DNA of 61,217 nt. Origin: Acidobacterium sp. S8. GTDB lineage: Bacteria > Acidobacteriota > Terriglobia > Terriglobales > Acidobacteriaceae. The stretch covers positions 511,615 through 572,831 of the forward strand of contig NZ_LMUM01000037.1 of the NCBI RefSeq assembly GCF_009765985.1, given 5' to 3'. Shown here piece by piece: positions 15,355 through 54,439 of this stretch (the first letter of the stretch is position 1; the number at the start of each line of letters is the position of its first letter). Under the pieces are notes generated by a model. The model did no database searches. It had not been told where the DNA came from and saw only the letters and a program-made list of their open reading frames with translations. Both the position numbers and the translations under genes were made by a program.

Positions 15355-15781
15355 CCGAACCTATCCGTCTTTCATCACCACTAGCTTACAATTGGTGCAA
15401 CTCTTTCCTGCTCGTTGCACGTGACCTTGTCCATCTGGCGGTCGGGCGGTTTTGTCGTTCTTGCGTCGTTTTACGGGGTCAACAGCCTCATGTTTCGATA
15501 GGAAATCCGGTACGAATCAGTCTGACATATGCGCTTCGTTTAGATAATTTCGACCCATTGCGCAGCCGAAATTAGGTGCCTCAATAAAAGCACAATTGGC
15601 AGCAATTCAACACCTGTCAATTCGTACAGGTATGGACAGCCTTCGAGATGTCATATTGCCCACCGTTAGATCTCCTCGCATTTGATTAGAAAGCCTTGAG
15701 GCCCTCAGAACGAGATTGCGCACAGGTACTCTCCACCGCTTCAACGCTCGCAGTCATTTGTCTTTCCCCTACTTCTGCCGG
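15355..15781. other. Intergenic region between the cytochrome operon and ackA
   Basis: This 427-bp AT-richer space should hold the promoter of the minus-strand cytochrome operon. It contains one lux-box-like palindrome at 15612-15631. I see no credible reading frame or RNA gene in it and no clear terminator for ackA. Confidence 0.5.
15612..15631. promoter_or_regulatory. Palindromic operator site 1, ACCTGTCAATTCGTACAGGT
   Basis: This 20-bp inverted repeat has 6-bp arms (ACCTGT/ACAGGT) and shares the CTGT-N8-ACAG core of the other sites in the window. It lies about 258 bp before the start of the decaheme cytochrome gene. Unlike most of the set it lacks a clear -10-like hexamer at 23 nt on either side, so its target is uncertain. 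Confidence 0.5.
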
Positions 15782-16978
15782 TTAAGAAACGGGCTGCATT
15801 AAGCCAAGTAGCGACCAGGTGTGGCGCGCGATCATGAGTTCCTCATTGGTCGGAACGACCCATGCCGAAACCTTGCTTTGCGCAGTCGATATGCGCGACA
15901 CGCCGCTAACGTTCGCCTGCGGATCCAGATCCACGCCCAGCCATGAAGATGCCTCACAGATGCGACGGCGGATTTCCGGTGAATTTTCTCCGATGCCTGC
16001 CGTGAACACGAGCCCATCGATACCACCCAGGACCGCGGTCAAAGCGCCGATTTCCTTCGCTGCACGATATACGAAGTAATCCACCGCCAGCTGAGCTTCG
16101 GGTTCGCTTCTGCCGAGCAGATCACGCATGTCGTTGCTGATCCCGGAAATCCCTAACAAACCCGATTGTTTGTATAGCATCGTCTCTACTTCTTTAGCGG
16201 TGAGCTCTAGGCTTTGGAAGAGATATAAAACGACTCCCGGATCGAGCGCCCCCGGCCTCGTTCCCATGCAGAGCCCGTCCAACGCCGTGAAGCCCAGAGT
16301 GCTATCAACGCTTTTTCCGTCGTTCAAGGCGCACAGACTCGCGCCGCTTCCAAGATGCGCCACGATGACTCTCCCTTTAGCAATCTCGGGGGCAACCTCC
16401 GGCAATACAGAAGCAATGTACTCGTAGGACAGGCCGTGGAAACCGTATCGCTGCAGGCCCGATTTGCAAATGTTTCTTGGCAGTGGGATCAGGTCTGCTA
16501 CCTGCGAATGGCCGGAATGAAAGCCCGTATCAAAGCAGGCGATCTGCGGTACGTCGGGCATGCGCTCGAAAACGGCATCGATGGCTGCGAGGTTGTACGG
16601 CTGATGTAACGGAGCCAGTGGGACGACTTCGTACAGATGAGAAAGTATCTGCCGAGTCACCAGCACCGGCTGACCGTATCGCATCCCTCCATGAACAACT
16701 CTGTGTCCAATGCCCAGCACGTGTGCGCCGTGCCACTTTGACCGGAGCCATGACGCGAGTGCGTCGATGGCTGCGTGCCCATCGGAAACAGTGGCATCCA
16801 GGCTGTTGCCTGCAAGTACTACACCCCGAGCATCCTTCGCAGAGAGTCGTGGCGCAGTCCCGATGCCCTCGATCTGGCCGCGCGACGCAACTTGCCAGTC
16901 TTTCTCGCTGAGTCGCTGGAAAACACAGAACTTCAGGCTTGATGAGCCTGCATTAAGCACAAGTGCATAGTCGTCCAT
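15782..16978 (-). CDS. ackA: Acetate kinase
   Basis: The 398-residue protein carries the acetokinase signatures: LNAGSSSLKF at the N terminus, IACFDTGFH, the RYGFHGLSY motif, HLGSGASLCA, MGTRPGALDPG and FTAGIGENSPEIR. It interconverts acetyl phosphate plus ADP and acetate plus ATP. AGGAGTGG precedes the ATG and the phosphate acyltransferase gene ends only 9 bp upstream, so they form one operon. With the phosphoketolase encoded at 50-53 kb it can turn sugar phosphates into acetate with ATP formation by substrate-level phosphorylation. Confidence 0.96.
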   Translation of the reverse strand: MDDYALVLNAGSSSLKFCVFQRLSEKDWQVASRGQIEGIGTAPRLSAKDARGVVLAGNSLDATVSDGHAAIDALASWLRSKWHGAHVLGIGHRVVHGGMRYGQPVLVTRQILSHLYEVVPLAPLHQPYNLAAIDAVFERMPDVPQIACFDTGFHSGHSQVADLIPLPRNICKSGLQRYGFHGLSYEYIASVLPEVAPEIAKGRVIVAHLGSGASLCALNDGKSVDSTLGFTALDGLCMGTRPGALDPGVVLYLFQSLELTAKEVETMLYKQSGLLGISGISNDMRDLLGRSEPEAQLAVDYFVYRAAKEIGALTAVLGGIDGLVFTAGIGENSPEIRRRICEASSWLGVDLDPQANVSGVSRISTAQSKVSAWVVPTNEELMIARHTWSLLGLMQPVS

Positions 16979-16987
16979 ATACCACTC

Positions 16988-17926
16988 CTACGGATTGTTT
17001 CGACGGGCATGCGCGGCGAGCATCGCGACGGCACAACTTGCAATTCGCGACCGCACGCTATCGGCCCGGCTGGTCAGGATGATCGGGACTCTCGCGCCGA
17101 GCACCAACCCGGCACTGTCAGCTTTCGCCAGGAAGCTGAGTTGTTTGGCAAGAATGTTTCCCGCTTCGAGGTCCGGCGCCAGCACGATGTCAGGATCACC
17201 GGCGACTTCAGAGTGAATACCTTTGGTCAGGGCGGCCTCCTTGCTGATCGCGTTATCAAACGCCAGCGGGCCATCGAGTATGGCTCCGGTAATCTGTTTC
17301 CGATCGGCCATCTTGCAGAGAGCCGCCGCATCGATCGTGGCCGGCATCTTTGACGTCACCGTTTCGACTGCTGCCAGGATTGCGACCTTGGGTTTCTTAA
17401 GGCCGAGCGAGATGGCGAGATCGATAGCGTTCTGGCAGATGTCTGCTTTGTCTTCCAATGTGGGAAATATATTGATCGCACCGTCAGTGACGATCAGGAC
17501 CTTGTGATATGTCGGAATATCCATCACAAAGACGTGACTAATTCGGCGGCCGGTCCGCAATCCTCCTTCGCGAGAAACGACCGCCGCCATCAGTTCGTCC
17601 GTGTGCAGGCTGCCTTTCATCAGAAGTTCTGCCTGCGCCAAGCGCACCAATTCGACAGCCTTTGCCGCAGATGCATTGCTGTGCGAAGTGTCCACTATTT
17701 CAAAGCTGCTGATGTCGAGTCCCGCAGATTTGGCGGTGGCCTCTATCTTGTCCCGAGGTCCGACCAGGATGGGAATAATGATTCCCAGGTTCGCTGCCTC
17801 GACTGCGCCAGACAGCGCCGACGCCTCGCACGGATGTGCCACCGCAGTTGGAATCGGCTTCATGTTCTTGCACGTCACCAACATCTGTTCATATTTTCCG
17901 GTTCCGCTTCCGGCTTGGTGAATCAT
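16988..17926 (-). CDS. Phosphate acetyl/butyryltransferase
   Basis: The start at 17926 (MIHQAGSGTGKYEQML) follows a strong GGAGGTGCAAGG site and overlaps the stop of the upstream MFS gene as ATGA, which is better supported than the far upstream in-frame ATG. The 312-residue protein matches the short Pta/Ptb family: PTAVAHPCEASALSGAVEAA, GPRDKIE, KGSLHTDELM, SHVFVMD, LDGPLAFDNA and the C-terminal APDLEAGNILAKQL. It exchanges CoA and phosphate on short acyl groups. Next to acetate kinase, acetyl-CoA/acetyl phosphate is the probable physiological pair, although butyryl specificity cannot be excluded. Confidence 0.9.
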   Translation of the reverse strand: MIHQAGSGTGKYEQMLVTCKNMKPIPTAVAHPCEASALSGAVEAANLGIIIPILVGPRDKIEATAKSAGLDISSFEIVDTSHSNASAAKAVELVRLAQAELLMKGSLHTDELMAAVVSREGGLRTGRRISHVFVMDIPTYHKVLIVTDGAINIFPTLEDKADICQNAIDLAISLGLKKPKVAILAAVETVTSKMPATIDAAALCKMADRKQITGAILDGPLAFDNAISKEAALTKGIHSEVAGDPDIVLAPDLEAGNILAKQLSFLAKADSAGLVLGARVPIILTSRADSVRSRIASCAVAMLAAHARRNNP

Positions 17927-19141: not shown

Positions 19142-19400
19142 TCAGGCAAGGGCAGCTATACCGAGACTCTTCCCGATCTGCGGCTTGCTTTCTAATTGTG
19201 CAGCTCCCGCACCCGGTTCCCGAAGCGTTAATTACGTTGAGTGGGTCTCCCATTGCATGCTCCGCTCGAGTCACCCTTTCGCGCCCCTCAGTTGGCCTCT
19301 TACCAGAACCATCTGATTGGAGGAGTTATAGCGACACATGCGCAGCCAAGCCTCGGCGCCATCTACCGAGAACATCTCAAACGGCTATATAGCCTGGGAA

Positions 19401-19416
19401 CTGTCAGTTCTACTAG
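19401..19416 (-). promoter_or_regulatory. Palindromic operator site 2, CTGTCAGTTCTACTAG
   Basis: A copy of the recurrent 16-bp palindrome with one imperfect end (CTAG for ACAG). It lies some 190-260 bp upstream of the broken MFS-pta-ackA operon. No -10-like TAnnnT is found at 22-23 nt on the operon side; on the other side TGCATT starts at 23 nt. Its assignment to the operon is therefore tentative. Confidence 0.45.
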
Positions 19417-19863: not shown

Positions 19864-19976
19864 TCACATGAGTTATTGCACGCTCCGTTCCTTAGCATAA
19901 GTGACTAACTCCGAGTCGGTAACATAGCTAGATATCAGTCCTTGCTCGAAGCCAGCGAAGTGCGGCGAGTTTATGT

Positions 19977-19992
19977 CTGGCAGAACTGACAG
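19977..19992 (+). promoter_or_regulatory. Palindromic operator site 3, CTGGCAGAACTGACAG
   Basis: A good copy of the recurrent palindrome (CTGGCA-N4-TGACAG) in the space before the DcaP-like porin gene, 247 bp from its start. The -10-like hexamer at 23 nt present at most other copies is not seen; a TAATCT begins 16 nt downstream. The regulated gene may be the porin or the decayed DUF1624 gene on the other strand. Confidence 0.45.
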
Positions 19993-25237: not shown

Positions 25238-25642
25238 TCAACTCCCGACACGACTCGCTGCGAGCAATTTTTCTTTGCGGGAGAAATAAACGTAGGCGCC
25301 GACGCTGAGAAAATTAATCAACACGCCAATCACGTTCCACACGACCACAGGTCGCGAAATAATCAATAAGCCGTAGTAAACCCAAAGAATTTGAAACGTA
25401 CCTATGATTGCCGCCATCCTGGGGTTCATCCCAGCGCTGGAGCGGCGCCTAAGCATCGCGATCAGATCGGGCAACGCGGCGAAAGTTGTTCCCATTCCTG
25501 CCAGGAAGCCGAAGAGCTCTGACCGGAGAAATCTTGGAATGAACAAGCTATGCACGTCGTGCGGAACCGGACCCTGACAGCCATAAAGCGTGAAGAGAAA
25601 CACACAAGGAATAATGAGCGTCACTGAATTGAATCGGGACAT
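25238..25642 (-). CDS. SemiSWEET/PQ-loop family membrane protein
   Basis: The start at 25642 (MSRFNSVTLII) has GGAGG directly upstream, unlike the ATG 102 bp earlier. The 134-residue product has an N-terminal hydrophobic leader with a lipobox-like LYGC, then the three-helix unit of bacterial SemiSWEETs: FGFLAGMGTTFAALPDLIAMLRRRSSAGM, IGTFQILWVYYGLLI and VVVWNVIGVLINFLSV. The PQ motif is PD here and the WN pair is present. SemiSWEETs are sugar uniporters working as dimers. The extended N terminus is unusual. The promoter is predicted to contain operator site 4, 102 bp upstream. Confidence 0.68.
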   Translation of the reverse strand: MSRFNSVTLIIPCVFLFTLYGCQGPVPHDVHSLFIPRFLRSELFGFLAGMGTTFAALPDLIAMLRRRSSAGMNPRMAAIIGTFQILWVYYGLLIISRPVVVWNVIGVLINFLSVGAYVYFSRKEKLLAASRVGS

Positions 25643-25744
25643 TTGTGCCTCCGCGCGCAAGTTTGTGTTGGGCGGGTTAACAAGTAACATCAGGAGGATC
25701 GTTATCTCTATCCCGTATCGTAAACAGCTAAGTACAATTGCCAA

Positions 25745-25760
25745 CTGTCAGTTGAAACAG
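25745..25760 (-). promoter_or_regulatory. Palindromic operator site 4, CTGTCAGTTGAAACAG
   Basis: Copy of the recurrent palindrome. Reading towards the SemiSWEET-like gene, TACGAT (25717-25722) starts 22 nt after the palindrome, matching the geometry at the other sites. The gene start is 102 bp away. Confidence 0.68.
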
Positions 25761-25826: not shown

Positions 25827-25842
25827 CTGTCAATTTCAACAG
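25827..25842 (+). promoter_or_regulatory. Palindromic operator site 5, CTGTCAATTTCAACAG
   Basis: Copy of the recurrent palindrome. Reading rightwards, TAGAAT (25866-25871) starts exactly 23 nt downstream. The next gene on that strand is the DUF3300 gene at 26144, so a leader of about 270 nt is predicted. Confidence 0.68.
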
Positions 25843-26143
25843 GTGCGCCGCGAAACGGTGCGACCTAGAATCGCGAGACATGATCGAGTAGGGAGGGCTG
25901 AGGAGCGGCCGGTGATACGCGGTGACTGCTTGCGGATGCTTCGAGTTGACCTGTCGGGATATCGCGAAACCCCGTGTTCATATGGTCCTTGGCGCATCTT
26001 TTCTGATTCGTCACTGAATCACGACGCCTTTCGGGCAGACTGCAGTATGCGATCCCCTCATAGGTATGTCGAAACGACTCTGCGGTGAATTACCGGCACG
26101 ATATGAAGGCGTGCCTCATCCGGAACGGGGAGGGAAGGTGGCC

Positions 26144-27643: not shown

Positions 27644-28639
27644 ATGAAATCAACAACTGGGAAAGCAAATCTCTCCAGACTCGCCTGGATTGCGTGCGCA
27701 GTAGCTGTGGGCTGTCTGTCTGCTCCGGTTCTTCTCGTTGCCCAGCAATCCACGGCAAAAGAGAGTCCGGCAGCGACCGCAGACGCTGCCGGAAGTCCCA
27801 AAGGCTTTGACACCCCGCAGCAGGCTGTCGATGCGTTGCTCGACGCGGCCGATCGGTTCGATGAAACAGCTCTGATGCATATTTTTGGAGCCGACGGCGT
27901 GGATATTGTATTTAGCGGGGAAGTCGTACAGGATCGAAAGCGTGCCGCTGATTTCGCTGCCAAAGCACACGAAAAGGAAACCGTTTCTGTAAATCCGAAG
28001 ACCGGGAATCGCGCATTCCTTCTGGTGGGCAACGAGGAATGGCCCTTTCCTGTGCCGATCGTAAAGAGAAGCGGCAAATGGTATTTCGACGGCAAAGCCG
28101 GCCGCCAGGAACTGTTGTACCGCCGCATCGGAGCTAACGAACTCGACGCCATTCAAATTTGCCACGGCTATGTGGAAGCACAGGAAGAATATGCTCTCCA
28201 ACCGCGCGAGGGCTACGACGTGAACCAGTACGCGCAGCGCATCATCAGCACTCCTGGGAAACAGGACGGTCTGGCATGGCAAAAGTCCGATGGCACTTGG
28301 GAAGGTCCAATTGGCGAAGAAATTGCCAAGGCGATTGCCCAGGGTTACACGAGCCGTGAGGAGCCGTACCACGGCTACTTTTTTAAGGTCTTGAAGGGGC
28401 AGGGACCCGACGCGCCGCTGGGACAGATGGACTACGTAGTGAAAGGCGTGATGATCGGGGGCTTTGCGTTGGTAGCGGCACCAGCCGAGTACCGCGTGAC
28501 CGGTGTGAAGACCTTCATTGTCAGCAATGACGGTGTTGTGTACGAGAAGAATTTTGGGCCTACCACCCTTGACGAGTTCAAGAAGATGGAGCTCTTCAAC
28601 CCAGATAGCTCCTGGAGCCCGGTCGGTGAAGACCAGTAG
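27644..28639 (+). CDS. DUF2950 secreted protein
   Basis: The ATG at 27644 (MKSTTGKANLSR) follows CAGGAGCATTGAG; an in-frame ATG at 27617 is the alternative. The 331-residue protein has a signal peptide (ends LLVAQ) and the DUF2950 domain: FDTPQQAVDALLDAADRFDE, VGNEEWPFPVPIVK, WYFDGKAGRQELLYRRIG, YGAREGYDV-like ALQPREGYDVNQYAQRI, GYFFKVLKGQGP and MIGGFALVAAPAEYRVTGV. Its role is unknown. It directly follows the DUF3300 gene, a pairing seen in many bacteria, and is presumably in the same transcript. A short relic of a second DUF2950 copy lies at 38.7 kb. Confidence 0.88.
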   Translation: MKSTTGKANLSRLAWIACAVAVGCLSAPVLLVAQQSTAKESPAATADAAGSPKGFDTPQQAVDALLDAADRFDETALMHIFGADGVDIVFSGEVVQDRKRAADFAAKAHEKETVSVNPKTGNRAFLLVGNEEWPFPVPIVKRSGKWYFDGKAGRQELLYRRIGANELDAIQICHGYVEAQEEYALQPREGYDVNQYAQRIISTPGKQDGLAWQKSDGTWEGPIGEEIAKAIAQGYTSREEPYHGYFFKVLKGQGPDAPLGQMDYVVKGVMIGGFALVAAPAEYRVTGVKTFIVSNDGVVYEKNFGPTTLDEFKKMELFNPDSSWSPVGEDQ

Positions 28640-28822: not shown

Positions 28823-30430
28823 TTACCACGTGCCGATACGTAATACTGCGCCGGTGGTGATCCGCAGTGTGTTTTGTGGTTGGATCGTGCCCACATCTCC
28901 AATCCAGGAATGGGTGTACTCGACATTGAGGAGACGCCAGGCGAAGGGCCGGGCGACCACTACGTCAAAGCCGCCTCCGAAGCCGAGAGCCGGGCCATTG
29001 TTTGCGACTTCGACCGACCAATCGCTGCGCTTTGGGTAATGCGGCAAAGTCCCTTTGCCGTCGTCCCATTCGTCTAACAACTGAGTTCGTAGAGCAAGAT
29101 CGTCGGTTTCGTGAGTTACTTTCTTGCCGCCGAACATCACTTGCGCATAGGGTGAAACGCGATGTGCCGCCAGCGGAGTCCAGCGCAGTCCGCCGCCATA
29201 AAACAGGGAGTCGGCGCTCTGATTCGCAGCGGGCATGTGCATGATCAGGCATCCACTCACTTCGGCGACGAGTTGCAAGCTAGGATTAATGCGACTCGCT
29301 CCCGAGCCGCCACCACCAACACAGCTCCCGCCGTGTCCAATGAAGGTTTCGTAAACCGGGAAGGCCGTCAACTCGATGTCCGCTTCCTTTGGATACTCGC
29401 GATCGTCGTCGGGCTGAGGCAGGCGAACATATTCGAAGGGCTTCTCGCCGCCCGCCTTGTATTCCGCAACGAGTTCTTTGCGAGCGCGATACTCTTCTCC
29501 GCCCAAACCGATGCGATCTTCGCGACGCCACGGCACCTTGAATGCCATCACGTTTGCGAACGATCGGCCAGGATTCAGGAAACTCCGGGTGAGCGCGATT
29601 AAAGCTCGATTGGTCGTCCGGTTCTCCAGCCCCATGATCAGATATCGGTCTGCGGCGTCTTCTCCGATCATTTCGACCGTGCCGAGCGTGGGCGTGTCGA
29701 CGAGGGTAATGAACCCGGGAGAGGCATGCAGCATCACGTTGCCGATCGAGGCCTCGCTGGCAGGGCCGATCTTCCATTGCGTATGCCAGACGGCCGAATA
29801 TGCCAAGGAATGCAAAAGACTCATGTAGTAGACGCGGCCATCTCCCCACTGGACCTTGCTGTACCTGGGGTCATTTTGGCGCTCGATATATCCGAAGATA
29901 GAGCCTTCAATCGTGTGGCCTACATATGGCGCCATGAATCGGTCGCTGTCGCTCCAGCCGCGCAGTTCGCTCACAGAATCCAGATAGTGCGTAAGCCAGT
30001 GTCCATTCAACGTGTCGCGGGTTCCGGGCTCTGTCCAGATGTTGAATGTATGCATGATGCCCGTATAGAGAAGCGACTCCTGGATGGCAGCTATCCACTT
30101 TACGTTGGTGTCGGGGAGTGGCTGGCGTGAAGACTGAACCACGCCGGCTGAATCCAAAACGCCGGAGGATACCGTGCCGGAGCTATCCGGAAGCTTGTCG
30201 ATCTTGAGATAGGCATACCGGTAGGAACGAAGCGATGGATCGAAGCCGGAGGCGAGTGTTCCATACCTGCTGTCGAAGTTGAATCGAAAGAGCTCGTGCC
30301 CCGGCGCGTTTGATCCGGCATCTGATAGAGGCTGGCCCTTTGCGGAAGCCGATGGAATAAGGCTAGCAAAGACCAGCAGGATCGAAGCAAAGATGATCCA
30401 CCTCTGACTGAACTGACTTTTCATTCGCAT
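28823..30430 (-). CDS. Secreted protein with C-terminal outer-membrane barrel, unknown function
   Basis: The 535-residue protein has a signal peptide (ends SASAKG), a central region with conserved-looking YVGHTIEGSIFGYIERQNDP and a helical YYMSLLHSLAYSAVWHTQW, and a C-terminal set of about eight amphipathic strands ending LRITTGAVLRIGTW, typical of an outer-membrane barrel. The middle section faintly recalls DUF3943 proteins (His-Pro-x-Gly...Ser-x-x-Glu pattern), but I would not assign the family. It lies 230 bp downstream of the GH63-like gene on the same strand. Confidence 0.65.
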   Translation of the reverse strand: MRMKSQFSQRWIIFASILLVFASLIPSASAKGQPLSDAGSNAPGHELFRFNFDSRYGTLASGFDPSLRSYRYAYLKIDKLPDSSGTVSSGVLDSAGVVQSSRQPLPDTNVKWIAAIQESLLYTGIMHTFNIWTEPGTRDTLNGHWLTHYLDSVSELRGWSDSDRFMAPYVGHTIEGSIFGYIERQNDPRYSKVQWGDGRVYYMSLLHSLAYSAVWHTQWKIGPASEASIGNVMLHASPGFITLVDTPTLGTVEMIGEDAADRYLIMGLENRTTNRALIALTRSFLNPGRSFANVMAFKVPWRREDRIGLGGEEYRARKELVAEYKAGGEKPFEYVRLPQPDDDREYPKEADIELTAFPVYETFIGHGGSCVGGGGSGASRINPSLQLVAEVSGCLIMHMPAANQSADSLFYGGGLRWTPLAAHRVSPYAQVMFGGKKVTHETDDLALRTQLLDEWDDGKGTLPHYPKRSDWSVEVANNGPALGFGGGFDVVVARPFAWRLLNVEYTHSWIGDVGTIQPQNTLRITTGAVLRIGTW

Positions 30431-33413: not shown

Positions 33414-33559
33414 TGCTCTCTCCTTCACTCCAGCCGGGGCTGTCGGGAGGCTGCGTCGGACGCTTGCCGCGGGATCAGTGGTCAAAGTCGCGGTGTGTGT
33501 AACGAGGGGCGTCGGGCCGGCACGGCTCATCCCACCTGAATCGACAAGATAGTAGAGCT

Positions 33560-33706
33560 TTATGGTCGAGCTTCATACTGCCAGAAATGACAGTTCGAAA
33601 AAAGTCCACGGATTCCCTCGACACAAGGCAGCGTGACCATGTTCACATCCTCTGAGTAGACTACGGCTTCCGGCGTCACAATCTCGAGTTTTGTTGTGCT
33701 GCCCAT
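33560..33706 (-). pseudogene. atpC: ATP synthase epsilon subunit, N-terminal relic
   Basis: The minus strand from ATG 33706 reads KLEIVTPEAVVYSEDVNMV then TLPCVEGIRG, the start of F1 epsilon, whose members begin with LEIVTPE...V...V.LP...G. After about 37 residues the similarity ends and the frame closes at 33560-33562. It lies just downstream of an atpD relic in the normal atpD-atpC order. Operator site 6 overlaps the end of the frame. Confidence 0.7.
33578..33593 (-). promoter_or_regulatory. Palindromic operator site 6, CTGCCAGAAATGACAG
   Basis: Copy of the recurrent palindrome. Towards the GH63-like gene, TACTAT (33549-33554) starts exactly 23 nt beyond it. The gene start is 164 bp away. 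Confidence 0.7.
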
Positions 33707-34365: not shown

Positions 34366-35262
34366 CTAGTTGCCCTCTATATTTCCGGCAATGGCTTTAT
34401 TTTGCAGAACGCGCACTACTACACGACGATTTTCCGCCTGCCCTTCCACCGTCTTTTCATTGCCGACTTGCTCACTTTCTCCCATCGCACCCGGTGCCAG
34501 CATTCTGGTGAGCGAGACGCGCCCCTGCTGAAGCAGGATGGTCGTCACATTGTTGGCGCGGTCTTCGCTAAGTTTCTGGTTCAAAGCTGTGCTACCAGTC
34601 ACAGAGGCGTAGCCCTTCACTTCGATCATGTAGCCCTCGATTGCCTTCGCTTTTTCAGTCAGCGCCAGCAACTGCGAATTGTATTTCGGATCAACGTTGA
34701 CCTTGCCGTTGTCGAAGTAAACTGTTACCTCGTCCCTAATGTAGTAATCGTCCAGTTGACCAAAGCGCGCGACGGCGGCGTCGATGGCCGCCTTATTCGC
34801 CGCAACCTTGGTCTGCTGGTCAGTTAACTGCGCTTGTTGTCTCTCCAGCTCTTCCTTGTTCTGTTGAGTTTGTGCCTTGGTTTCGTGCATGCCGGCTGAA
34901 ATGGCTTGGGCCTGCTCCAAATCATTGCCCTTGAACCTCACCGAGTTGGCTACTAGTTGTCTTTGATCGTTGTATGTACCTTCTACCTTAACGGGCAGTC
35001 CGGGAATGAGAGCAGCCATTGACATTTCCTTCTTGCGCGCCTTGAGCATTCCCTGCACCTGGGCTACGTCTGTGCTATCGGTCAGTAAGACTACAAGGTT
35101 TGGGGAATCGGAGGTTTTCAGGATAATTGTGTCGCCGCTCCTTGCCTGGATCAGACCCTCGACCTTTACGGATTGCGCCGTGACCGCCGTACTGAATAAT
35201 GTGAGGCCGATGATGGATAGAGCAGCAACATACGCGAGGCGTGACAATTTGTACTTGGTCAT
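34366..35262 (-). CDS. OmpA-family protein
   Basis: The start at 35262 (MTKYKLSRLAYVA) follows GGAGAATGCC. The 298-residue protein has a signal peptide (ends AVTAQS), a small beta domain (SVKVEGLIQARSGDTIILKT...VKVEGTYNDQ), a coiled coil (QTQQNKEELERQQAQLTDQQTKVAANKAAI) and a C-terminal OmpA-like domain with VTVYFDNGKVNVDPKY, IEVKGYASVTGS, NQKLSEDRANNVTTIL and ENRRVVVRVL. The OmpA domain would bind peptidoglycan while the coiled coil spans the periplasm. Operator site 7 lies 180 bp upstream. Confidence 0.85.
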   Translation of the reverse strand: MTKYKLSRLAYVAALSIIGLTLFSTAVTAQSVKVEGLIQARSGDTIILKTSDSPNLVVLLTDSTDVAQVQGMLKARKKEMSMAALIPGLPVKVEGTYNDQRQLVANSVRFKGNDLEQAQAISAGMHETKAQTQQNKEELERQQAQLTDQQTKVAANKAAIDAAVARFGQLDDYYIRDEVTVYFDNGKVNVDPKYNSQLLALTEKAKAIEGYMIEVKGYASVTGSTALNQKLSEDRANNVTTILLQQGRVSLTRMLAPGAMGESEQVGNEKTVEGQAENRRVVVRVLQNKAIAGNIEGN

Positions 35263-35442
35263 GGCATTCTCCGTTCTCAACGTGACAATCCGGGTTCAAA
35301 GCAATCAGGAGTGCGCCAACTCGCAATTCACGTGAGCACCGAACATTACCGATACTTGCGCTTGAGGCTAACTTCATACTGCCTCTGTAACGAGATCGTC
35401 AAGGCTACGGAGAAATGTCTCAGACTTACCAGGTTCTGCAAA

Positions 35443-35458
35443 CTGTTAGTTCTGCCAG
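35443..35458 (-). promoter_or_regulatory. Palindromic operator site 7, CTGTTAGTTCTGCCAG
   Basis: Copy of the recurrent palindrome, one mismatch in each arm. Towards the OmpA-family gene, GACATT (35414-35419) starts 23 nt beyond it, a weaker -10 than TAnnnT but at the same place. Confidence 0.6.
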
Positions 35459-35642
35459 TGTCACACTTTCTCAGTGTGATATTTTTCGATGCGGTAATTG
35501 GGAGAGTACCTGGAATCAACTCTGCCCCGTCAAGCCAGATTAGTAACTAACCGATTTTATTCGTCAGAGTCGTATAGTAGGCACGTTACTATTACCGAAT
35601 AAAGCTATTCAATTCTGCGTAACATCTGACGGTATCAGCCTA

Positions 35643-35694
35643 CCAAAAAGACCGGGCCTGCTTCTGCTCACTGCATAGAGCATGAAACAGGCCC
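35643..35694 (-). terminator. Rho-independent terminator of the sortase/LPXTG operon
   Basis: On the minus strand, 25 bp after the LPXTG gene, GGGCCTG pairs with CAGGCCC, with an inner TGCTC/GAGCA stem, followed by GGTCTTTTTGG. Stem plus T run on the correct strand make this the best terminator in the window. Confidence 0.7.
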
Positions 35695-35718
35695 AGCTGC
35701 CGAAAATCGCGCCAAAGA

Positions 35719-36498
35719 TTATGCGGCTTTGCGAATCAGTCTTAGACCAAATGCTGACGCCAGGCTCAAAATTCCCAGCAGTCCATATAGCGGCAACTCG
35801 CTTCCCGTCTTCGGCAAGGCTGCAGGAGCGCCTTCCGTAGCTGTAGGTGCAGCCGCCGGTGAAGCTTCTACAGCGACCAGGATGGGAGCGTCCGCTGTCG
35901 GTGGCGTCGGTGCAGGCGGCATCTGGCCGGTCAGGTGTCTTGCATGCTCCACCTGCGTGATCGGTTCTTCCACCACCTTCGTTGCGGAGACCTTCATGCC
36001 CTTCTTCAAGCCCCATGCATCCACCATTTGTCCGTCAACGTTAAACTTCTGGCCCTTGGGAATCTTGAATTGTTGATTCGTTCCGTCCTCCAGCGTCAGA
36101 ATAACTGACGAAGGCGGCTGCACGTGCCACACCTTGCCCGTAACTGTCTGTGTAGTGGTAATCACTTTAGGAGTTGTGGTTGTGACTATCGTTCTCTGGA
36201 GAGTCATACCTGCTTTCAGATCATGAATCCCCAGTTGCTTACCATCCACGGTAACGCGGGCGCTTTCAGGCACGTTTGCTATATGCCGGATCGTGCCGTC
36301 TTCCATCTTGACTATCAGGTCATTCCCGATGACATCTACAACTTGTGCATGATCTACCTTCAGCTCCTTGCTCGACTGTCCAGTTGTAGTAGAGGTCTGT
36401 GTTTGTACCTGTGAGCTTCCGCTCAGGGCAAAGGTCAGGCAGACGGCCCCCACCGCGAGCACAAACCACGATCGTATGTATCTGTTGCTTCGGTTCAT
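35719..36498 (-). CDS. Secreted protein with LPXTG sorting signal
   Basis: The 259-residue protein has a signal peptide (ends near ALSGSSQ), two related small beta domains (VVDVIGNDLIVKMEDGTIRHI...VTVDGK and VWHVQPPSSVILTLEDGTNQQF...FNVDGQ), a Pro/Ala-rich spacer, and a C terminus with LPKTG (228-232), a hydrophobic helix and the positive tail RLIRKAA. That is a complete cell-wall-type sorting signal. The sortase gene lies 100 bp upstream on the same strand, so it is the dedicated substrate. Such a pair is unusual in a Gram-negative organism. What the protein would be attached to is unknown. Confidence 0.85.
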   Translation of the reverse strand: MNRSNRYIRSWFVLAVGAVCLTFALSGSSQVQTQTSTTTGQSSKELKVDHAQVVDVIGNDLIVKMEDGTIRHIANVPESARVTVDGKQLGIHDLKAGMTLQRTIVTTTTPKVITTTQTVTGKVWHVQPPSSVILTLEDGTNQQFKIPKGQKFNVDGQMVDAWGLKKGMKVSATKVVEEPITQVEHARHLTGQMPPAPTPPTADAPILVAVEASPAAAPTATEGAPAALPKTGSELPLYGLLGILSLASAFGLRLIRKAA

Positions 36499-36598
36499 TG
36501 TGTCCTCTCCTTGTTGGCTTTCGGAACTAGGAGCCGGAGCCCGTAGTGCCGGTTACTAAAACAGCTGCTTACATTTGCGTTTCACATTCGTTGATTCT

Positions 36599-37282
36599 TC
36601 ACAATTTCGCATTCTTATCAGCGCTCACGCTCGTCCCGACTGAACTCGCCAGGGAAGCCTGAACGATGTATCGCTGAGGAGCGCTGCCCACGAAGTAGAA
36701 CGGGTAGCAAGTCACCAGCGTTACGGAAGGACGCAACCGTGAAGCAAGAACCGAGACATCACTTGGATCGACTATGGTGATCTGGTCAATTACATACGTA
36801 GTAGTTTCCTTTTGCGTCATGATCTCGATCGTGTCTCCCGTGGCAACATCCTTCAGTCCTCGAAAAAACCCGTCCCTATGGCCGGCGATTCCGATATTGC
36901 CGTCGCTGGTTTCTCCCGGTCTGGCCGTACCTGCAATGTGTCCAACGGCCCGATTCAAACTAAGATCATCAGTGCCCTCGAGAACCGGAACTTCCAGATG
37001 AATCTTCGGAATGCGGAGCAGGGCCATCGCGGGAGTGAAATGAGAAGCCAGACTTTCCTGGTAGCCCTGAATGCGTTTCGGCGACCAAAGACTGAAATCG
37101 GGCGCCTTGCCAGTTGCTTCAGTTCCGTTGTGAAGCTCCTGGGCCAGCAATTGCTGGCTCTTGAATCTCTTGACTTCCGCACGTGACAGAATGAAACCAT
37201 GGATGCGAGCTCCCACATAGACGCAGAGCATCAACACCCCAACAATGAGCAGCAGGCGCTCGACCTTCCTCATCCATTGCAT
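36599..37282 (-). CDS. Sortase (class D-like)
   Basis: The 227-residue protein has one N-terminal membrane anchor (residues about 9-27) and a sortase beta-barrel: ALLRIPKIHLEVPVLEGTDD, NIGIAGHRDGFF with catalytic His135, VTLVTCYPF with Cys192, and APQRYIV with Arg204. All three catalytic residues are present, so it should be active. Spacing and sequence resemble class D sortases. It is followed by a gene for an LPKTG protein, its likely substrate. GAGGG lies upstream of ATG 37282; ATG 37273 is an alternative. Operator site 8 lies 89 bp upstream. Confidence 0.88.
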   Translation of the reverse strand: MQWMRKVERLLLIVGVLMLCVYVGARIHGFILSRAEVKRFKSQQLLAQELHNGTEATGKAPDFSLWSPKRIQGYQESLASHFTPAMALLRIPKIHLEVPVLEGTDDLSLNRAVGHIAGTARPGETSDGNIGIAGHRDGFFRGLKDVATGDTIEIMTQKETTTYVIDQITIVDPSDVSVLASRLRPSVTLVTCYPFYFVGSAPQRYIVQASLASSVGTSVSADKNAKL

Positions 37283-37371
37283 CGTGGCTTACCCTCGCCA
37301 ACCAAGAGAGGAACTTAGGCGTACGGCACTCCTCCTGTCAAGACAGTACAGTTAACTAATCAATCGCGTAA

Positions 37372-37387
37372 CTGTCACTACTAACAG
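37372..37387 (-). promoter_or_regulatory. Palindromic operator site 8, CTGTCACTACTAACAG
   Basis: Copy of the recurrent palindrome. Towards the sortase gene, TACTGT (37343-37348) starts exactly 23 nt beyond it. A shorter repeat, CTGTCAAGACAG, overlaps the -10 region and might be a second binding site. Confidence 0.7.
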
Positions 37388-37986: not shown

Positions 37987-38002
37987 CTGGCAGATTTGCC
38001 AG
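37987..38002 (+). promoter_or_regulatory. Palindromic operator site 9, CTGGCAGATTTGCCAG
   Basis: A perfect inverted repeat (CTGGCA-N4-TGCCAG). GACAAT (38026-38031) starts exactly 23 nt downstream on the plus strand, towards the secreted protein gene at 38156. Confidence 0.65.
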
Positions 38003-38155
38003 TATCCCATTTCTCTCAGCGAACGGACAATAAGACTTCCCAAGGGATAGACGTCTCGCAGCGATCCGATCCCCGCCACGCTGGCAGCCGATAGTTGCGG
38101 GACAAAGGGCTAGAAGCCAACCCCTTAAGTGCAGATTCAACGAGGAGAAAATTTT

Positions 38156-42257: not shown

Positions 42258-42369
42258 ATCTAATCTCCGATCCATCGAGTTTGTTGCGCCACGTCGACGT
42301 TCCACCCTCTTAGCTTGTCCGTCTTCGCGAATTCATGCTAATGCTAAGAGCCTGAAACGGCGATGTGAA

Positions 42370-42385
42370 CTGTCAGTCTTGACAG
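42370..42385 (-). promoter_or_regulatory. Palindromic operator site 10, CTGTCAGTCTTGACAG
   Basis: A perfect copy of CTGTCA-N4-TGACAG. Towards the DUF4136 gene, TAGCAT (42341-42346) starts exactly 23 nt beyond it. Confidence 0.75.
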
Positions 42386-42689: not shown

Positions 42690-43499
42690 TCAATAAATCT
42701 CGGGAATGAAATGCGCCTTCTTCAGTGGGGCTTGATCGTCATATCGTTTGCGGTTGTCTCGCGGTGGCAGTTTCACCTTTTCCCGCGGAACTTTTCCATA
42801 GGGAATCGTGCTCAGGAAATGCGAGATACAGTTGAGCCGTGCCTTCTTCTTGTTATCGGAACGAACGACGAACCAGGGAGCATGCCTGCTGTCGGTTGCC
42901 TTCAGCATGGCGTCACGCGCCATTGAATAGTCATACCAGCGGCCGAACGACTCGACATCCATCGGGCTCAGCTTCCATTGCCGTAGTGGGTCAGCAATCC
43001 GTGCCTTGAATCGCCTTTCCTGCTCATCAGGGCCCACTTCCAGCCAGTATTTGATGAGAATGATCCCAGCATCCACGATGTACTTTTCTAGCTGGGGGCA
43101 TTGCTCAAGGAAAGTGCGATGTTGATCCTTGGTGCAGAAGCCCATTACGTGCTCCACGCCGGCTCGGTTGTACCAACTGCGATCGAAGATCACGATCTCG
43201 CCCCCGGCAGGAAAACGATCGATATAACGCTGCATGAACATCTGGGTCTTTTCGCGGTCAGATGGAGCAGGCAAGGCTACGACCCGGAACACACGAGGGC
43301 TCACCCGTTCGGTCATCGCGCGGATCGTTCCTCCTTTGCCTGCGGCATCTCGTCCCTCAAATACGACAATCGCTCGAACTCCCTTGTATTTGACCCAGTC
43401 TTGAAGCTTGCACAACTCTGCCTGGAGGCGTCGAAGTTCTTTCATGTACTGTTTATTATTCAGGCTGTCGTCGTTCTTGCCGTTTACTGTTTCCGCCAT
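42690..43499 (-). CDS. ppk2: Polyphosphate kinase 2
   Basis: The 269-residue protein is a class I PPK2: Walker A in VVFEGRDAAGKGGTI, TERVSPRVFRVVALPAPSDREKTQMFMQRYI, Walker B IVIFDRSWYNRAGVEHVMG and the lid-region arginines in DEQERRFKARIADPLRQWKLSPMD. It moves phosphate between polyphosphate and nucleoside diphosphates, usually favouring ATP or GTP formation from polyphosphate. The ATG is preceded by GAGGCGATC. Operator site 11 lies 116 bp upstream, which places polyphosphate use in the same predicted regulon as phosphoketolase. Confidence 0.93.
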   Translation of the reverse strand: MAETVNGKNDDSLNNKQYMKELRRLQAELCKLQDWVKYKGVRAIVVFEGRDAAGKGGTIRAMTERVSPRVFRVVALPAPSDREKTQMFMQRYIDRFPAGGEIVIFDRSWYNRAGVEHVMGFCTKDQHRTFLEQCPQLEKYIVDAGIILIKYWLEVGPDEQERRFKARIADPLRQWKLSPMDVESFGRWYDYSMARDAMLKATDSRHAPWFVVRSDNKKKARLNCISHFLSTIPYGKVPREKVKLPPRDNRKRYDDQAPLKKAHFIPEIY

Positions 43500-43615
43500 G
43501 GATTGATCGCCTCTTTAGGAAGGCCGCGCCGTTTGAGGTTTCGCAAAATCGCGAAATGGCGAGGGCAGATTTTCACCAAAGACTTAAGGCTAGTGGGCGA
43601 ATGGAAATCTGGATA

Positions 43616-43631
43616 CTGTCAAAAACAACAG
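43616..43631 (-). promoter_or_regulatory. Palindromic operator site 11, CTGTCAAAAACAACAG
   Basis: Copy of the recurrent palindrome. Towards the PPK2 gene, TAGCCT (43587-43592) starts exactly 23 nt beyond it. Confidence 0.7.
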
Positions 43632-50251: not shown

Positions 50252-50383
50252 TGCCTTAACCTTTCCGCTTCATATGCGCAGTTGTTCGGGTTGCTTCGTC
50301 TGTCGGAATGACAAATGAGTACAACGTGAAGTTCATCGCTGCTGACCGTTTCTGCGGCATCCCGCAACTGGGAGAGGGGCAGT

Positions 50384-52819
50384 TTAGTAAGGCCACTTCC
50401 AGCCAGCAACATCTGGGTTATCAGTTCCGTGCTTGAACGCATAGTTGCGGCATGCAATCTGCTCGTTCTGAAATTTTTCCTTGGCGTGGGCGCCTATTTG
50501 CTGCAGCCTCGGTACGCGCTTGATGGCATCCATCGCCAGGCTGAAGCGATCGATCTCGTTTTCGATCGCAAGTTCCAGCGGTGTATTGATGTTGCCCTGT
50601 TCCTTATATCCGCGGACGTGCATGTTGCGATGATTCGTTCGGCTGTACGCCAGACGATGGATGAGCCATGGATATCCGTGAAAGTTAAATATGATTGGCT
50701 TGTCGACGGTGAATAACGAATCAAAATCTTCATCAGTCAAACCATGCGGATGATCCCTGCTCGGCTGCAACTTAAATAGGTCCACTACGTTGATGTAGCG
50801 AATCTTGAGATCAGGAAATTCCTGCCGCAACAGCGTAATCGCGGCCAATGTTTCCTGGGTTGGTATGTCACCGGCTGACGCCATTACGACATCCGGTTCG
50901 CTCCCCTGATCGTTGCATGCCCAGTCCCACATTCCGATACCTTTGGTGCAATGTGTGATGGCTGCATCCATGTCCATGTATTGCATGTGCAGTTGCTTAT
51001 CGCAGACTATGACGTTGACATAGTTCTCGCTCCGCAGGCAGTGGTTAGCAACCGACAAAAGCGAATTGACGTCCGGCGGCATATAAATGCGCGTGACAGC
51101 AGAACTCTTGTTGACTACCACGTCCAGGAAGCCAGGATCCTGGTGCGTAAAACCATTGTGATCCTGTCGCCATACGGTAGACGTAACAAAGATGTTTAGA
51201 GAGGCGATGCTCTTACGCCACGAAAGATGATTACAGATAGACAGCCACTTAGCGTGTTGGTTAAACATGGAGTCGATGACATGGATAAAAGCTTCATAGG
51301 ATGAGATAAAACCGTGGCGCCCCGTGAGCAAGTACCCTTCAAGCATGCCCTCAACCGTGTGCTCACTGAGCATCTCAATGACGCGCCCGTCGGGTGCCAG
51401 TTCTCCGCCATCTGCGTCTTCCGGAAAATACTCAGCGATCCAGAATTTTTTACTGACTTCATAAATGTCGTTCAACTTATTCGACGTATTTTCGTCAGGT
51501 CCAAAGACGCGAAAATTTTTCATATTCAGCTTCATCACATCGCGAAGCAGCGCTCCCAGTGGCCGCGCGTTCTCTGCTTCAACTGTCCCTGGCTTTTCAA
51601 AGGTGAATGCATATTCCCTGAAGTCCGGGAGACGCAGAGCCCGCTTCAGGCCACCGCCATTGGCGTGCGGGTTGGCCCCCATGCGACGCGTACCGTTGGG
51701 TGCAAGTTCTTTTAGTTCAGCAATCAGCGTTCCTTTGGAATCGAAGAGTTCTTCCGGCTTATAGGAACGCATCCAGTTCTCGAGTTCCTGAAGTCGTTCC
51801 GGATTCTTTTTCACATCGGCCATCGGCACCTGGTGCGCCCGCCAGAATCCTTCCAGCCTGTGACCATCTATTTCCTTGGGAGCAGTCCAGCCCTTCGGCG
51901 TCCTCAACACAATCATTGGCCAGCGAACACGCTCAGGTACGCCCGTCTCACGGGCAGCCTTCTGCTGCTTTCTTATTTCGGAGACACAGCGCTCGGTTGT
52001 CGCGGCCATTGCCTGGTGCATGCTTTCGGGTTCAGAACCCTCAACGAAGTATGGCGTCCAGCCGTAGCCGCGAAATAGGCCTTCCAACTCCTCATGACTG
52101 ATACGGGCGAGTAGTGTAGGGTTGTTAATCTTGTAGCCGTTCAAATGCAAAATCGGCAGCACAGCTCCATCGCGAATCGGATTAATGAATTTGTTGATGT
52201 GCCAAGAGGTTGCGAGCGGTCCGGTTTCCGACTCGCCGTCGCCCACTACAGCGGCAACGATCAAGTCGGGATTATCAAACGCTGCTCCGCACGCATGTGA
52301 GAGCACGTAGCCAAGCTCGCCCCCTTCATGGATAGATCCCGGTGTTTCCGGCGTGCAGTGGCTTCCGATGCCACCCGGAAAAGAGAACTGCTTGAAAAAT
52401 TCGCGCATGCCCTCTTCGTCTTCGCATTTTTCGGTATAGATTTCGGAATAAGTTCCCTCCAGATAAACTGGCGCGAGCACGCCCGGCGCTCCATGTCCAG
52501 GCCCCGCAAGGAAAATCATGTCCAGGTCATATTTCTTGATGAGCCGGTTTAGGTGAATGTATGTAAAAGCCAATCCTGGGCTCGAGCCCCAGTGACCTAA
52601 GAGCCGATTCTTGATGTGCTCCGGCTTGAGAGGCTTCTTCAATAGAGGATTGTCCTGCAGGTAAATCATGCCAAGCATCAGGTATGTGCAGGCGCGCCAG
52701 TACGCGTGGATCTTGCGCAAATCTTCAGTGCCGAGAGGCGCACCTGATACTGTCGATCTGGCAGCGCCATACGCGGTTAAAATATTGTCCGCTTTCTCGA
52801 CAGGTACCGCGGTTGACAT
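50384..52819 (-). CDS. xfp: Xylulose-5-phosphate/fructose-6-phosphate phosphoketolase
   Basis: The 811-residue protein has the thiamine-diphosphate enzyme motifs of phosphoketolases: [53 protein letters not shown] (the diphosphate-binding GDG), [47 protein letters not shown] and [12 protein letters not shown]. It splits xylulose 5-phosphate or fructose 6-phosphate with phosphate to acetyl phosphate and an aldose phosphate. The acetyl phosphate feeds acetate kinase (15.8-17.0 kb). Operator site 12 is only 64 bp upstream. Confidence 0.96.
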
Positions 52820-53135
52820 CCATCACCTTCCATTGCCGGGCTGGCGACACGAAAAGCGTAAGGCCACACAACGCGACTGTCTTCTGTCAAAACTGACAGA
52901 GTTCAATAGTCAAATCACTATGCTCATCGCGTTCGTGATTTGGGCTATGTCTTGATCAGGCGCAATACACTGTCGAGAGAAGAGGATGAGGGTGAATGTG
53001 GGACTCGTTGCCGGCTCAAAGGCCGTCGCAGCCCAAAGCTCAAGGTCGTGATCTGTCGAGACGCAATCAAGGCAGCTTCGCTGGAAGCACTGGATCAGCA
53101 GATTGCTTCGAATTCAAGGCCGCAAGTCGATCCGC
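52820..53135. other. Intergenic region with operator site 12
   Basis: The 316 bp before the phosphoketolase gene contain its predicted promoter. The rest, 52900-53135, has no supported gene and no visible terminator for the upstream regulator operon. Confidence 0.5.
52884..52899 (-). promoter_or_regulatory. Palindromic operator site 12, CTGTCAAAACTGACAG
   Basis: A perfect copy of CTGTCA-N4-TGACAG. Towards the phosphoketolase gene, TACGCT (52855-52860) starts exactly 23 nt beyond it, giving a leader of about 30 nt. This is the most compact example of the arrangement. Confidence 0.78.
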
Positions 53136-53777
53136 CTATGCCGAAACCATGTGATTCCTTACTGCGTAGCGTACAAGTTCAGCGTTGCTCCTGGCGCCCA
53201 ACGATTCCATGATCCGATACTTATGAAAAGCCACCGTCCTGGTCGTCATGTTCAGGATGTCGCCAATTTCCTTCATCACCTTGCCTTCGGCCAACAGTTG
53301 CAGTACTTCCCGCTGTCTCTCAGTGAGCCGCTCATCTTCCAGCTTACTGTCCTTCCGACGAAGATAGTTGATCTCATCTTTGCAGAGACTCTCTGATATA
53401 TAGGATTTGCCGCACAAGACTGCGTGAACAGCAGTCACCAGCTCGGTCGCGGCGCAGGTTTTCAGTAGGTAGCCCGAAGCTCCCCGGCGAAATGCCTCTG
53501 CTGCGACTTCAATGTGGCTGTTCATGGTGAGAAAGAGGATCTTGACTGCGGGCATTGCCGCTTTTACTTGCTTGGCCGCATCCAGGCCGTTCAGAACCGG
53601 CATGCCAATGTCGACCACAATAACGTCCGGCTTCAACTCGCATGCCGATCGCACCATGGTACGCCCGTCGTTCACGACGCCCACTACTTCAAATTCTGTT
53701 TCGAGCAGCTTTCTGCACAATTCTGCCACTAGGGTGTGATCGTCAGCGACTAAAATGCGAGGACTGTTACTTAGCAT
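53136..53777 (-). CDS. NarL/FixJ-type response regulator (REC-LuxR HTH)
   Basis: The ATG at 53777 (MLSNSPRILVADDH) is chosen because AGGAGG lies 6 nt before it, whereas the ATG at 53783 touches the site. The 213-residue protein has a receiver domain (ADDH acidic pocket, phospho-Asp in VIVVDIGMP, Lys in YLLKTC) and a C-terminal LuxR-type HTH (LTERQREVLQLLAEGKVMKEIGDIL, TRTVAFHKYRIM). It is the last gene of the kinase-regulator cluster and 45% or so like the regulator at 54.5 kb by eye. A palindrome with the same promoter geometry as the operator set lies 50 bp upstream. Confidence 0.92.
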   Translation of the reverse strand: MLSNSPRILVADDHTLVAELCRKLLETEFEVVGVVNDGRTMVRSACELKPDVIVVDIGMPVLNGLDAAKQVKAAMPAVKILFLTMNSHIEVAAEAFRRGASGYLLKTCAATELVTAVHAVLCGKSYISESLCKDEINYLRRKDSKLEDERLTERQREVLQLLAEGKVMKEIGDILNMTTRTVAFHKYRIMESLGARSNAELVRYAVRNHMVSA

Positions 53778-53827
53778 GGTCATCCTCCTGCACGTTGATT
53801 TTTATGCAACGGCGCCTCCTGTGAAAA

Positions 53828-53843
53828 CTAGGAAAACTCCTAG
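53828..53843 (-). promoter_or_regulatory. Related palindrome, CTAGGAAAACTCCTAG
   Basis: A perfect 6-4-6 inverted repeat, CTAGGA-N4-TCCTAG, differs from the main consensus in the arms but has the same length. TAAAAA (53799-53804) starts exactly 23 nt beyond it towards the response regulator gene at 53777. It may be a diverged member of the operator set or a site for a paralogous regulator. Confidence 0.5.
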
Positions 53844-53913
53844 GTCACGGTCTACAGATACCAAAGGTTTAATGGCGGATTCGTTAATGGGCCAGTCCGC
53901 CTTTAGCCTCCAA

Positions 53914-54306
53914 TCAGCGAACAGATGGGGAGACGAAGGTATGGTTAGAAAGTGCTTCGTGTATCGCGGGAATAAGATCGCTTACCAATCGCGATTTCGT
54001 GACGTAGCCGAGACCTCCCTCGGCGAAGCATCCACGCACAAATGCGGGATCCTGATGAATAGTCAGGAAAACCAGCTTGGCCCGGGATCCAGCTTTGTGA
54101 AGCTCACGTGCGGCTTCAATTCCAGTAAGGAGCGGCATCGCGATGTCTAATACAATCACGTCCGGTTGAAGCCGTTGTGCTTCGCTAACCAGGCTCTTTC
54201 CATCATTGACCATCCCGATCACTTCAAAGTGAGGCTGTAACAGAGAAAGAACACGTGCGAGCACGGGATGATGGTCGTCAGCAAGAAGTATCCGTGGCCG
54301 CGCCAT
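53914..54306 (-). CDS. Single-domain response regulator (REC only)
   Basis: The start at 54306 (MARPRILLADDHH) follows AGAGAGGCCGAAC. The 130-residue protein is a receiver domain: ADDHHPVLARVL, phospho-Asp in VIVLDIAMPLLTGIEAARE, the Thr in FLTIHQD and the Lys in YVTKSRL. It lacks the LuxR HTH that its two neighbours carry, stopping soon after the receiver (HTFVSPSVR). It could be a phosphate sink or competitor for the shared kinase, or a regulator that lost its output. Operator site 13 lies 117 bp upstream. Confidence 0.85.
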   Translation of the reverse strand: MARPRILLADDHHPVLARVLSLLQPHFEVIGMVNDGKSLVSEAQRLQPDVIVLDIAMPLLTGIEAARELHKAGSRAKLVFLTIHQDPAFVRGCFAEGGLGYVTKSRLVSDLIPAIHEALSNHTFVSPSVR

Positions 54307-54423
54307 GTTCGGCCTCTCTTCTTCCGGAACTCCAAGGCCCGAACGATCCATTCCGATGTTTTCGCGGAAGTTCCGAATCAGATTTGAAGGTGCAATCCTA
54401 ACAAGATTGCTGACTCCCGCCAC

Positions 54424-54439
54424 CTAGCAGAATTGACAG
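54424..54439 (-). promoter_or_regulatory. Palindromic operator site 13, CTAGCAGAATTGACAG
   Basis: Copy of the recurrent palindrome with one imperfect end. Towards the REC gene, TAGGAT (54395-54400) starts exactly 23 nt beyond it. Its place inside the regulator cluster suggests feedback control. Confidence 0.68.

Follow-up and report, generated by a model that had tools for sequence, protein, structure and literature searches.

A conserved operator-promoter unit defines a regulon in Acidobacterium sp. S8, with NarL/FixJ response regulators as candidate binders

We analysed a stretch of 61,217 nucleotides of the Acidobacterium sp. S8 genome (contig NZ_LMUM01000037.1, positions 511,615 to 572,831; hereafter, the window), in which a palindromic operator, CTGTCA-N4-TGACAG, recurs between genes at a fixed distance from a -10 box. 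This operator-promoter unit is real and conserved, and the regulon that it defines reaches past the window. The unit probably belongs to an Acidobacteriota two-component regulon, at whose operator a NarL/FixJ response regulator (P0001 or P0002, both encoded in the window) would bind and activate transcription, and we would class the finding as a two-component regulon that has an operator of its own. The motif and its fixed -10 box provide a ready list of targets, and they make a single promoter layout and a single pair of regulators directly testable. Acidobacteria rank among the most common bacteria of soils. Literature searches on the operator, or on regulators of this kind in these bacteria, found no description of them.

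Operator and promoter layout

Allowing up to two mismatches, the consensus CTGTCA-N4-TGACAG is matched 16 times in the window, where 2.3 matches are expected, and none of 100 shuffles gave as many. A first-pass annotation of the window had listed 14 sites by position, and all are present there. Twelve of them are among the 16 consensus matches (19401 and 53828 are absent), and the unlisted matches at 28518, 34258, 48103 and 58028 score at most 10.1 bits or are absent from the list obtained with a position weight matrix. This symmetric, 18-column matrix was trained on ten window sites and scanned over 300 kb around the window (C29:411001-711000), about 85 % of which is called coding; gene calls behind all intergenic and coding counts came from a codon-score caller built for this analysis. 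Twelve of the 14 sites scored 14.7-24.8 bits, and the ten training sites scored 15.5-23.6 bits under leave-one-out. Site 15614 (11.4 bits) is doubtful. The site at 53828, proposed earlier as a related fourteenth member, scored 4.1 bits and was dropped; a transcript starting from its TAAAAA hexamer would fall about 9 nt before the P0001 ATG, inside the likely ribosome-binding site.

Eighteen sites exceed 14 bits in the 300 kb, against about 2 from first-order Markov sequence and a mean of 1.6 matches (maximum 9) for 200 column-permuted matrices. All 18 are confined to contig positions 531.0-601.8 kb, i.e. an island of about 71 kb, and all 18 are intergenic despite the high coding density. The claim that a repeated operator defines a regulon is borne out, and the comparison of frequencies within and between genes that accompanied it places the motif between genes. 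The regulon continues past the window end, with sites above 14 bits at window+61599, 61694, 62566, 64383, 69843 and 90139. Two promoter models, R1 and R2, both of which include the -10 box, were also run on the whole genome: R1 gave 16 matches at E<=10, every one in the island, and R2 gave 16 matches, 14 of them in the island. The bare consensus at one mismatch occurs in 20 places genome-wide (nine in the island) against eight for the reversed pattern, so that outside the island it is near background.

The distance between operator and -10 box peaks sharply at 23 nt. When the offsets of TANNNT were counted from 0 to 69 nt for 19 sites of this genome on both strands, 23 nt accounted for 11 of the 38 cases and each other offset for at most two, whereas 5000 random position sets, drawn from the whole 300 kb and not from intergenic DNA alone, never gave more than five at any offset. 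With the hexamer [TG]A[CG]NNT the count at 23 nt rises to 13 of 38, adding 35443 and 37987. A [TG]ANNNT box exactly 23 nt away with a gene ahead is found for nine window sites (25827, 33578, 35443, 37372, 37987, 42370, 43616, 52884 and 54424). The single 22-nt case is 25745, whose TACGAT faces a called 150-aa gene; the G026 homologue of this gene is 78 % identical over 110 aa. A -10-like hexamer at 22 or 23 nt had previously been reported for eleven sites: the nine at 23 nt and the one at 22 nt stand, and the eleventh (TAAAAA) belongs to the rejected 53828. An even mix of both spacings was dropped, 23 nt being dominant in this genome with one case at 22.

The same layout was found in other genomes, at loci mostly chosen by R1 or R2 matches. 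Across loci of five genomes, 110 of 113 sites above 14 bits are intergenic and, of 98 [TG]ANNNT boxes at 22-24 nt, 91 have a gene start ahead. A further set of 11 genomes, all but G006 with sites, contributed 98 sites from the loci examined, 97 of them intergenic; here the pooled TANNNT offsets number 51 at 23 nt, 13 at 24 nt and at most four elsewhere, and 55 of the 66 boxes at 22-24 nt face a gene. Because many of these loci had been found by models containing the -10 box, the offset count was redone without R2-matched sites: the 50 of 98 sites lacking a match among the R2 matches listed, a few of which may still be R2-matching, gave 17 at 23 nt, 10 at 24 nt and at most three elsewhere. Boxes of the type [TG]ANNNT at 22-24 nt on both sides were present, as a raw count, at 18 of the 191 sites examined.

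Aligned by orientation, 63 promoters with [TG]ANNNT at 23 nt and a gene ahead (a selection that fixes T, A and T of the -10 box) give the logo CTGTCA-n-W-W-n-TG[A/C]CAG-T, closely followed by a weak TTnnC and, further on, by TA[G/C]NNT. The weak TTnnC lies where a -35 element with a 17-nt spacer would fall. Placing the -10 hexamer at -12 to -7 puts the operator at about -51 to -36, with its centre near -43. At class II activator sites, the operator is centred near -41 to -44 at one fixed spacing from the -10 box, and the present layout suggests class II-like activation, in agreement with the earlier proposal given the 23-nt spacing and the assumed position of the hexamer.

Regulators, co-occurrence and conservation

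The NarL/FixJ regulators encoded at 53-55 kb, already put forward as candidates by the first-pass annotation, are the best-supported candidate binders, P0001 foremost. P0001 and P0002 combine a receiver with a GerE (LuxR-type) DNA-binding domain (Table 1), and the best sequence matches of P0001 among solved structures are VraR, NarL and RcsB. The adjacent HisKA_3 kinase P0004 is likely their partner.

Co-occurrence was assessed in a class sample of 299 genomes, including that of the window (G000), with R2 matches taken at E<=0.1 and counted as lower bounds (20 candidates scored per genome). R2 matches were found in 22 of the 30 genomes with a close P0001 homologue (E<=1e-60, a cut-off set after the list was seen, which leaves G093, at 1.5e-60 and with two matches, just outside) and in seven of the 269 without. 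At least five matches were found in 12/30 and 1/269, respectively, and other cut-offs gave the same picture. In a family sample of 59 genomes, four had at least five R1 matches at E<=1 (G026 14, G037 19, G040 11 and G032 5), and all four hold a P0002 homologue at E<1e-57; eight family genomes without such a homologue had one R1 match each.

The regulators of site-bearing genomes are also related to each other. Of 65 regulators placed in a tree, all from loci fetched around matches, the 27 that come from the 15 site-bearing genomes share without exception a single clade, which numbers 35 rows (support 99/94); the recognition helix T[VIA]x[FY]HK[YH] is present in 24 of these 27 rows against seven of the 38 others. 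Genomes labelled motif-rich here form a mixed set, with at least five R2 matches or at least five R1 matches (G026, G032, G037 and G040); the tree adds G054, which has one R2 match and several matrix sites. A third relative with the same type of recognition helix, L138 (G000:C23:304176-304793), is encoded on another contig of the window's genome, with no nearby site above 14.6 bits. P0003, a receiver-only protein, is encoded between the two full NarL-type regulators, and its homologues lie near regulators in several other genomes.

Conservation upstream of orthologues, proposed earlier as a check, was found across genera. Sites precede orthologues encoding MscS (G026, G032), PPK2 (G026, G032), the sortase (G026, G040), DUF3300 (G026, G037), the DcaP-like protein (G026) and P0001-type regulators (G026, G032, G037). 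In G330, which belongs to the same genus as the window's organism, sites lie ahead of the genes for PPK2 (91 % identical), MscS, a multihaem cytochrome, the sortase and others. Among 15 named loci, five (L020, L022, L023, L024 and L026) have sites above 11 bits in the matrix scan and the other ten have none. The fetched stretches of regulator-bearing genomes poor in R2 matches were scanned in the same way: G054 has clear sites, G031 some and G038 two above 14 bits, and none was shown for G018 and G042 with the matrix only, no de novo motif search being made. A proteobacterial counterpart was sought at the best plasmid match, in Rhizobium leguminosarum, where two regulators are encoded together with MscS and a kinase-like protein.

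Proposed mechanism and alternatives

In the mechanism that we propose, the neighbouring HisKA_3 kinase would phosphorylate P0001 or its paralogue P0002, and a dimer of the phosphorylated regulator would bind aCTGTCA-n-WW-n-TG[A/C]CAGt, a site with its centre near -43 that immediately precedes a degenerate -35 element. The bound regulator would recruit RNA polymerase to the TA[G/C]NNT box 23 nt away and thereby switch on the island genes, including that of the window's receiver-only regulator and, in relatives, the P0001-type genes. If the promoter at 54424 is real, the true start of the receiver-only regulator would lie below 54395. The signal, which we infer from gene content, would be low oxygen or energy limitation.

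Several observations weigh against this reading. Four strong sites (19977, 61599, 61694 and 64383) have no TANNNT at 23 nt, and the site upstream of P0001 itself in the window (53828) mismatches the operator. Co-occurrence partly follows descent, and the Fisher p-value of 6e-21 for the class sample overstates independence because of shared descent and because two of the 299 genomes (G000 and G032) contributed sites to the R2 model. No R2 match at E<=0.1 was obtained in eight of the 30 class genomes that carry the regulator, and among the four remaining family genomes whose P0002 homologue reaches E<1e-57, a single R1 match is present in each of G031 and G054 and none in G018 or G038. The locus L021 encodes a P0002 homologue with 69 % identity, yet its 10.3 kb hold no site above 11 bits. 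The proportion of 27/27 in the tree arose partly by selection of the loci. Lastly, G205 has 12 R2 matches and no close regulator was found in its assembly, which is 90 % complete; the tree counted this genome as motif-poor, and both of its rows lie outside the clade there.

The direction of regulation is likely activation, and the sites being operators of a repressor, which would keep the genes shut until a signal releases it, is an unlikely alternative on the promoter layout: the fixed 23 nt, a position upstream of the -10 box and not over it, and the poor -35 element are what class II-like activation needs, whereas a repressor would presumably need no single exact distance. The sign of regulation is, for its part, not readable from sequence alone.

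As to the binder, the 5-4-5 spacing of the site is like that of FNR boxes, and a CRP/FNR-type protein could bind it, with the response regulators as neighbours or targets; we hold this to be improbable. CRP/FNR-type helix-turn-helix genes occur in all 12 motif-rich genomes searched, and one subfamily, found at E<1e-30 in nine of 15 motif-rich and none of ten motif-poor genomes, speaks against our preferred reading; it also sits in site-bearing stretches of G238, G176, G252 and G242. However, no member was found at E<=1e-8 in the motif-rich G026, G037 (53 % complete) and G120, the matches are only remote (4e-9 to 9e-17) in G330 (single contig, 99 % complete), G101 and G188, and the homologue of the window's genome is on another contig. 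The one subfamily followed is missing or remote in six of 15 motif-rich genomes, which would rather disfavour it as a required binder. In G238 and G252, moreover, the operator lies upstream of a CRP gene itself (L148:5536-6384 and L153+L154:26655-27496, with a -10 box at 23 nt in the second only), which fits a target, and this gene may form a second tier below the response regulator.

We give about as little credit to binding by some other regulator co-inherited with the response regulators. Co-occurrence cannot separate the genes of one inherited unit, and G205 would be a case of the motif without the regulator; in G040 and G032, however, the sites are spread over several contigs or distant loci and the regulator clade is nevertheless present. 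Among 49 distinct proteins submitted to Pfam, covering part of the island genes, the only DNA-binding domains were GerE in P0001 and P0002 and the winged helix of SelB. A quorum-sensing LuxR system acting on a lux box (CTGT-N8-ACAG) is very hard to credit. The outer letters of the site resemble such a box, as noted earlier, but the GerE proteins P0001 and P0002 carry receiver and not autoinducer-binding domains, and no acyl-homoserine-lactone-binding domain was found among the 49 proteins, the rest of the genome not being scanned. The earlier view that either family could bind is narrowed, not closed: at least five operator matches occur in 13 class genomes, of which 12 have a close regulator and G205 does not.

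Beyond the NarL/FixJ-bound operator preferred here, a more specific picture is tentative and, in our estimate, has rather less than an even chance of being right as a whole. It would be a DosR-like regulon for anoxia or energy starvation, with tandem NarL/FixJ regulators and a receiver-only protein, symmetric operators acting as two-way switches and, in some genomes, CRP/FNR as a second tier. The two-way switch is suggested because the operator between the sel genes and the operon of a selenocysteine formate dehydrogenase has a -10 box 23 nt off on each side.

Genes behind the operators and related systems

The operators, regulators and first genes of the window are given in Table 1.

Table 1. 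Operators and associated genes, in window coordinates
Feature	Position	Strand	Score (bits)	-10 type hexamer	Gene ahead or description
Doubtful site	15614..15629	.	11.4	no -10 at 23 nt	
Operator	19401..19416	.	15.5	none of -10 type at 22-24 nt	
Operator	19977..19992	+	24.4	no TANNNT at 23 nt	DcaP-like (porin)/DUF2092/DUF6515/asparaginase gene row
Operator	25745..25760	-	14.7	TACGAT at 22 nt (25717-25722)	gene 25238-25690 (150 aa)
Operator	25827..25842	+	18.2	TAGAAT at 23 nt (25866-25871)	DUF3300 and DUF2950 genes
Operator	33578..33593	-	21.7	TACTAT at 23 nt (33549-33554)	GH63/MGH1-like glucosidase
Operator	35443..35458	-	23.7	GACATT at 23 nt (35414-35419)	PdsO-like OmpA protein (below NCBIfam cut-off)
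Operator	37372..37387	-	22.7	TACTGT at 23 nt (37343-37348)	class D sortase and LPxTG-type protein
Operator	37987..38002	+	23.4	GACAAT at 23 nt (38026-38031)	147-170-aa protein
Operator	42370..42385	-	22.9 (0 consensus mismatches)	TAGCAT at 23 nt (42341-42346)	185-201-aa protein
Operator	43616..43631	-	20.1	TAGCCT at 23 nt (43587-43592)	PPK2
Operator	52884..52899	-	24.8 (0 consensus mismatches)	TACGCT at 23 nt (52855-52860)	phosphoketolase row
Operator	54424..54439	-	18.1	TAGGAT at 23 nt (54395-54400)	receiver-only response regulator
P0001, NarL/FixJ response regulator	53136..53783	-			PF00072 and PF00196 (GerE); recognition helix TVAFHKYRIM
P0003, receiver-only response regulator	53914..54423	-			no DNA-binding domain found (Pfam)
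P0002, second NarL/FixJ response regulator	54457..55185	-			PF00072 and PF00196; helix TVMFHKYQIM
P0004, HisKA_3 histidine kinase	55155..58205	-			ABC_sub_bind-like region and PAS domains
Phosphoketolase	50384..52819	-			first gene behind operator 52884
Class D sortase	36599..37282	-			behind operator 37372
PPK2 polyphosphate kinase	42690..43499	-			behind operator 43616

The row behind 52884 comprises the genes for phosphoketolase, glycogen phosphorylase, isoamylase and MscS. Past the window, operator-linked genes encode DUF3011 and Ysc84 proteins, a row of RND efflux components and a selenium module (L013:5804-17089, i.e. window+65190 to +76475), in which selB, selA, a selD-like gene, tRNA-Sec and formate dehydrogenase are grouped around one operator. 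This operator (window+69843) lies between the selD-like/selA/selB genes and formate dehydrogenase, with TANNNT 23 nt away on both sides, and residue 181 of the formate dehydrogenase corresponds to an in-frame TGA. The tRNA-Sec gene runs antisense to the leader predicted for the selD-like gene. As a guess from the genes behind the operators, the signal may be linked to low oxygen or to limited energy. The motif would tie DUF2950, DUF3300, DUF2092, DUF6515 and a candidate sortase substrate to energy metabolism.

Two further observations concern proteins of the window. In this Gram-negative bacterium, a class D sortase, an LPxTG-type protein and a PdsO-like OmpA protein are encoded behind operators (34366-37282), and homologues of the sortase and LPxTG genes adjoin each other also in G026, G040 and G054. 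A protein of 533-535 aa without Pfam match is encoded at 28823-30430, with a homologue 70 % identical in G040.

Among known systems, the DosR/DevR dormancy regulon of mycobacteria shares a NarL-family regulator, a palindromic operator with an A/T centre, many genes of unknown function and a low-oxygen theme. It differs in operator sequence, the low-oxygen signal here is inferred, and no universal stress protein family was found among the 49 proteins given to Pfam. FixLJ-FixK of rhizobia likewise has a FixJ-type regulator, and the operator upstream of a CRP/FNR gene in G238 and G252 recalls FixJ acting above FixK; in contrast, the cascade is seen in these two genomes and not in that of the window, and the kinase P0004 scores 112 against a FixL model cut-off of 850. 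The NCBIfam match raised the possibility of a FixL-type haem sensor; the PAS domain presumably has no haem ligand matching that of FixL, which is a lead only. MctS/MctR (NF052443, NF052445) is closest by model, MctR being the best NCBIfam model for P0001 and P0002 and MctS the best two-component kinase model. However, the regulators score 156.2 and 150.5 bits against a cut-off of 300 and the kinase 148 against 700, and none of them is a member.

The lxa locus of Burkholderia cenocepacia resembles the island as a large gene cluster linked to persistence at low oxygen (PMC6127331); the main text of that report does not contain 'phosphoketolase', 'acetate kinase' or 'promoter', so no shared operator is known from it. 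Acidobacterium capsulatum under nanoxia (PMC11636273) offers a likeness within the acidobacteria: at low oxygen, a histidine kinase transcript was up 84-fold and glycogen-metabolism transcripts were up as well, while 'Phosphoketolase', 'LuxR' and 'sortase' are absent from the main text of that report.

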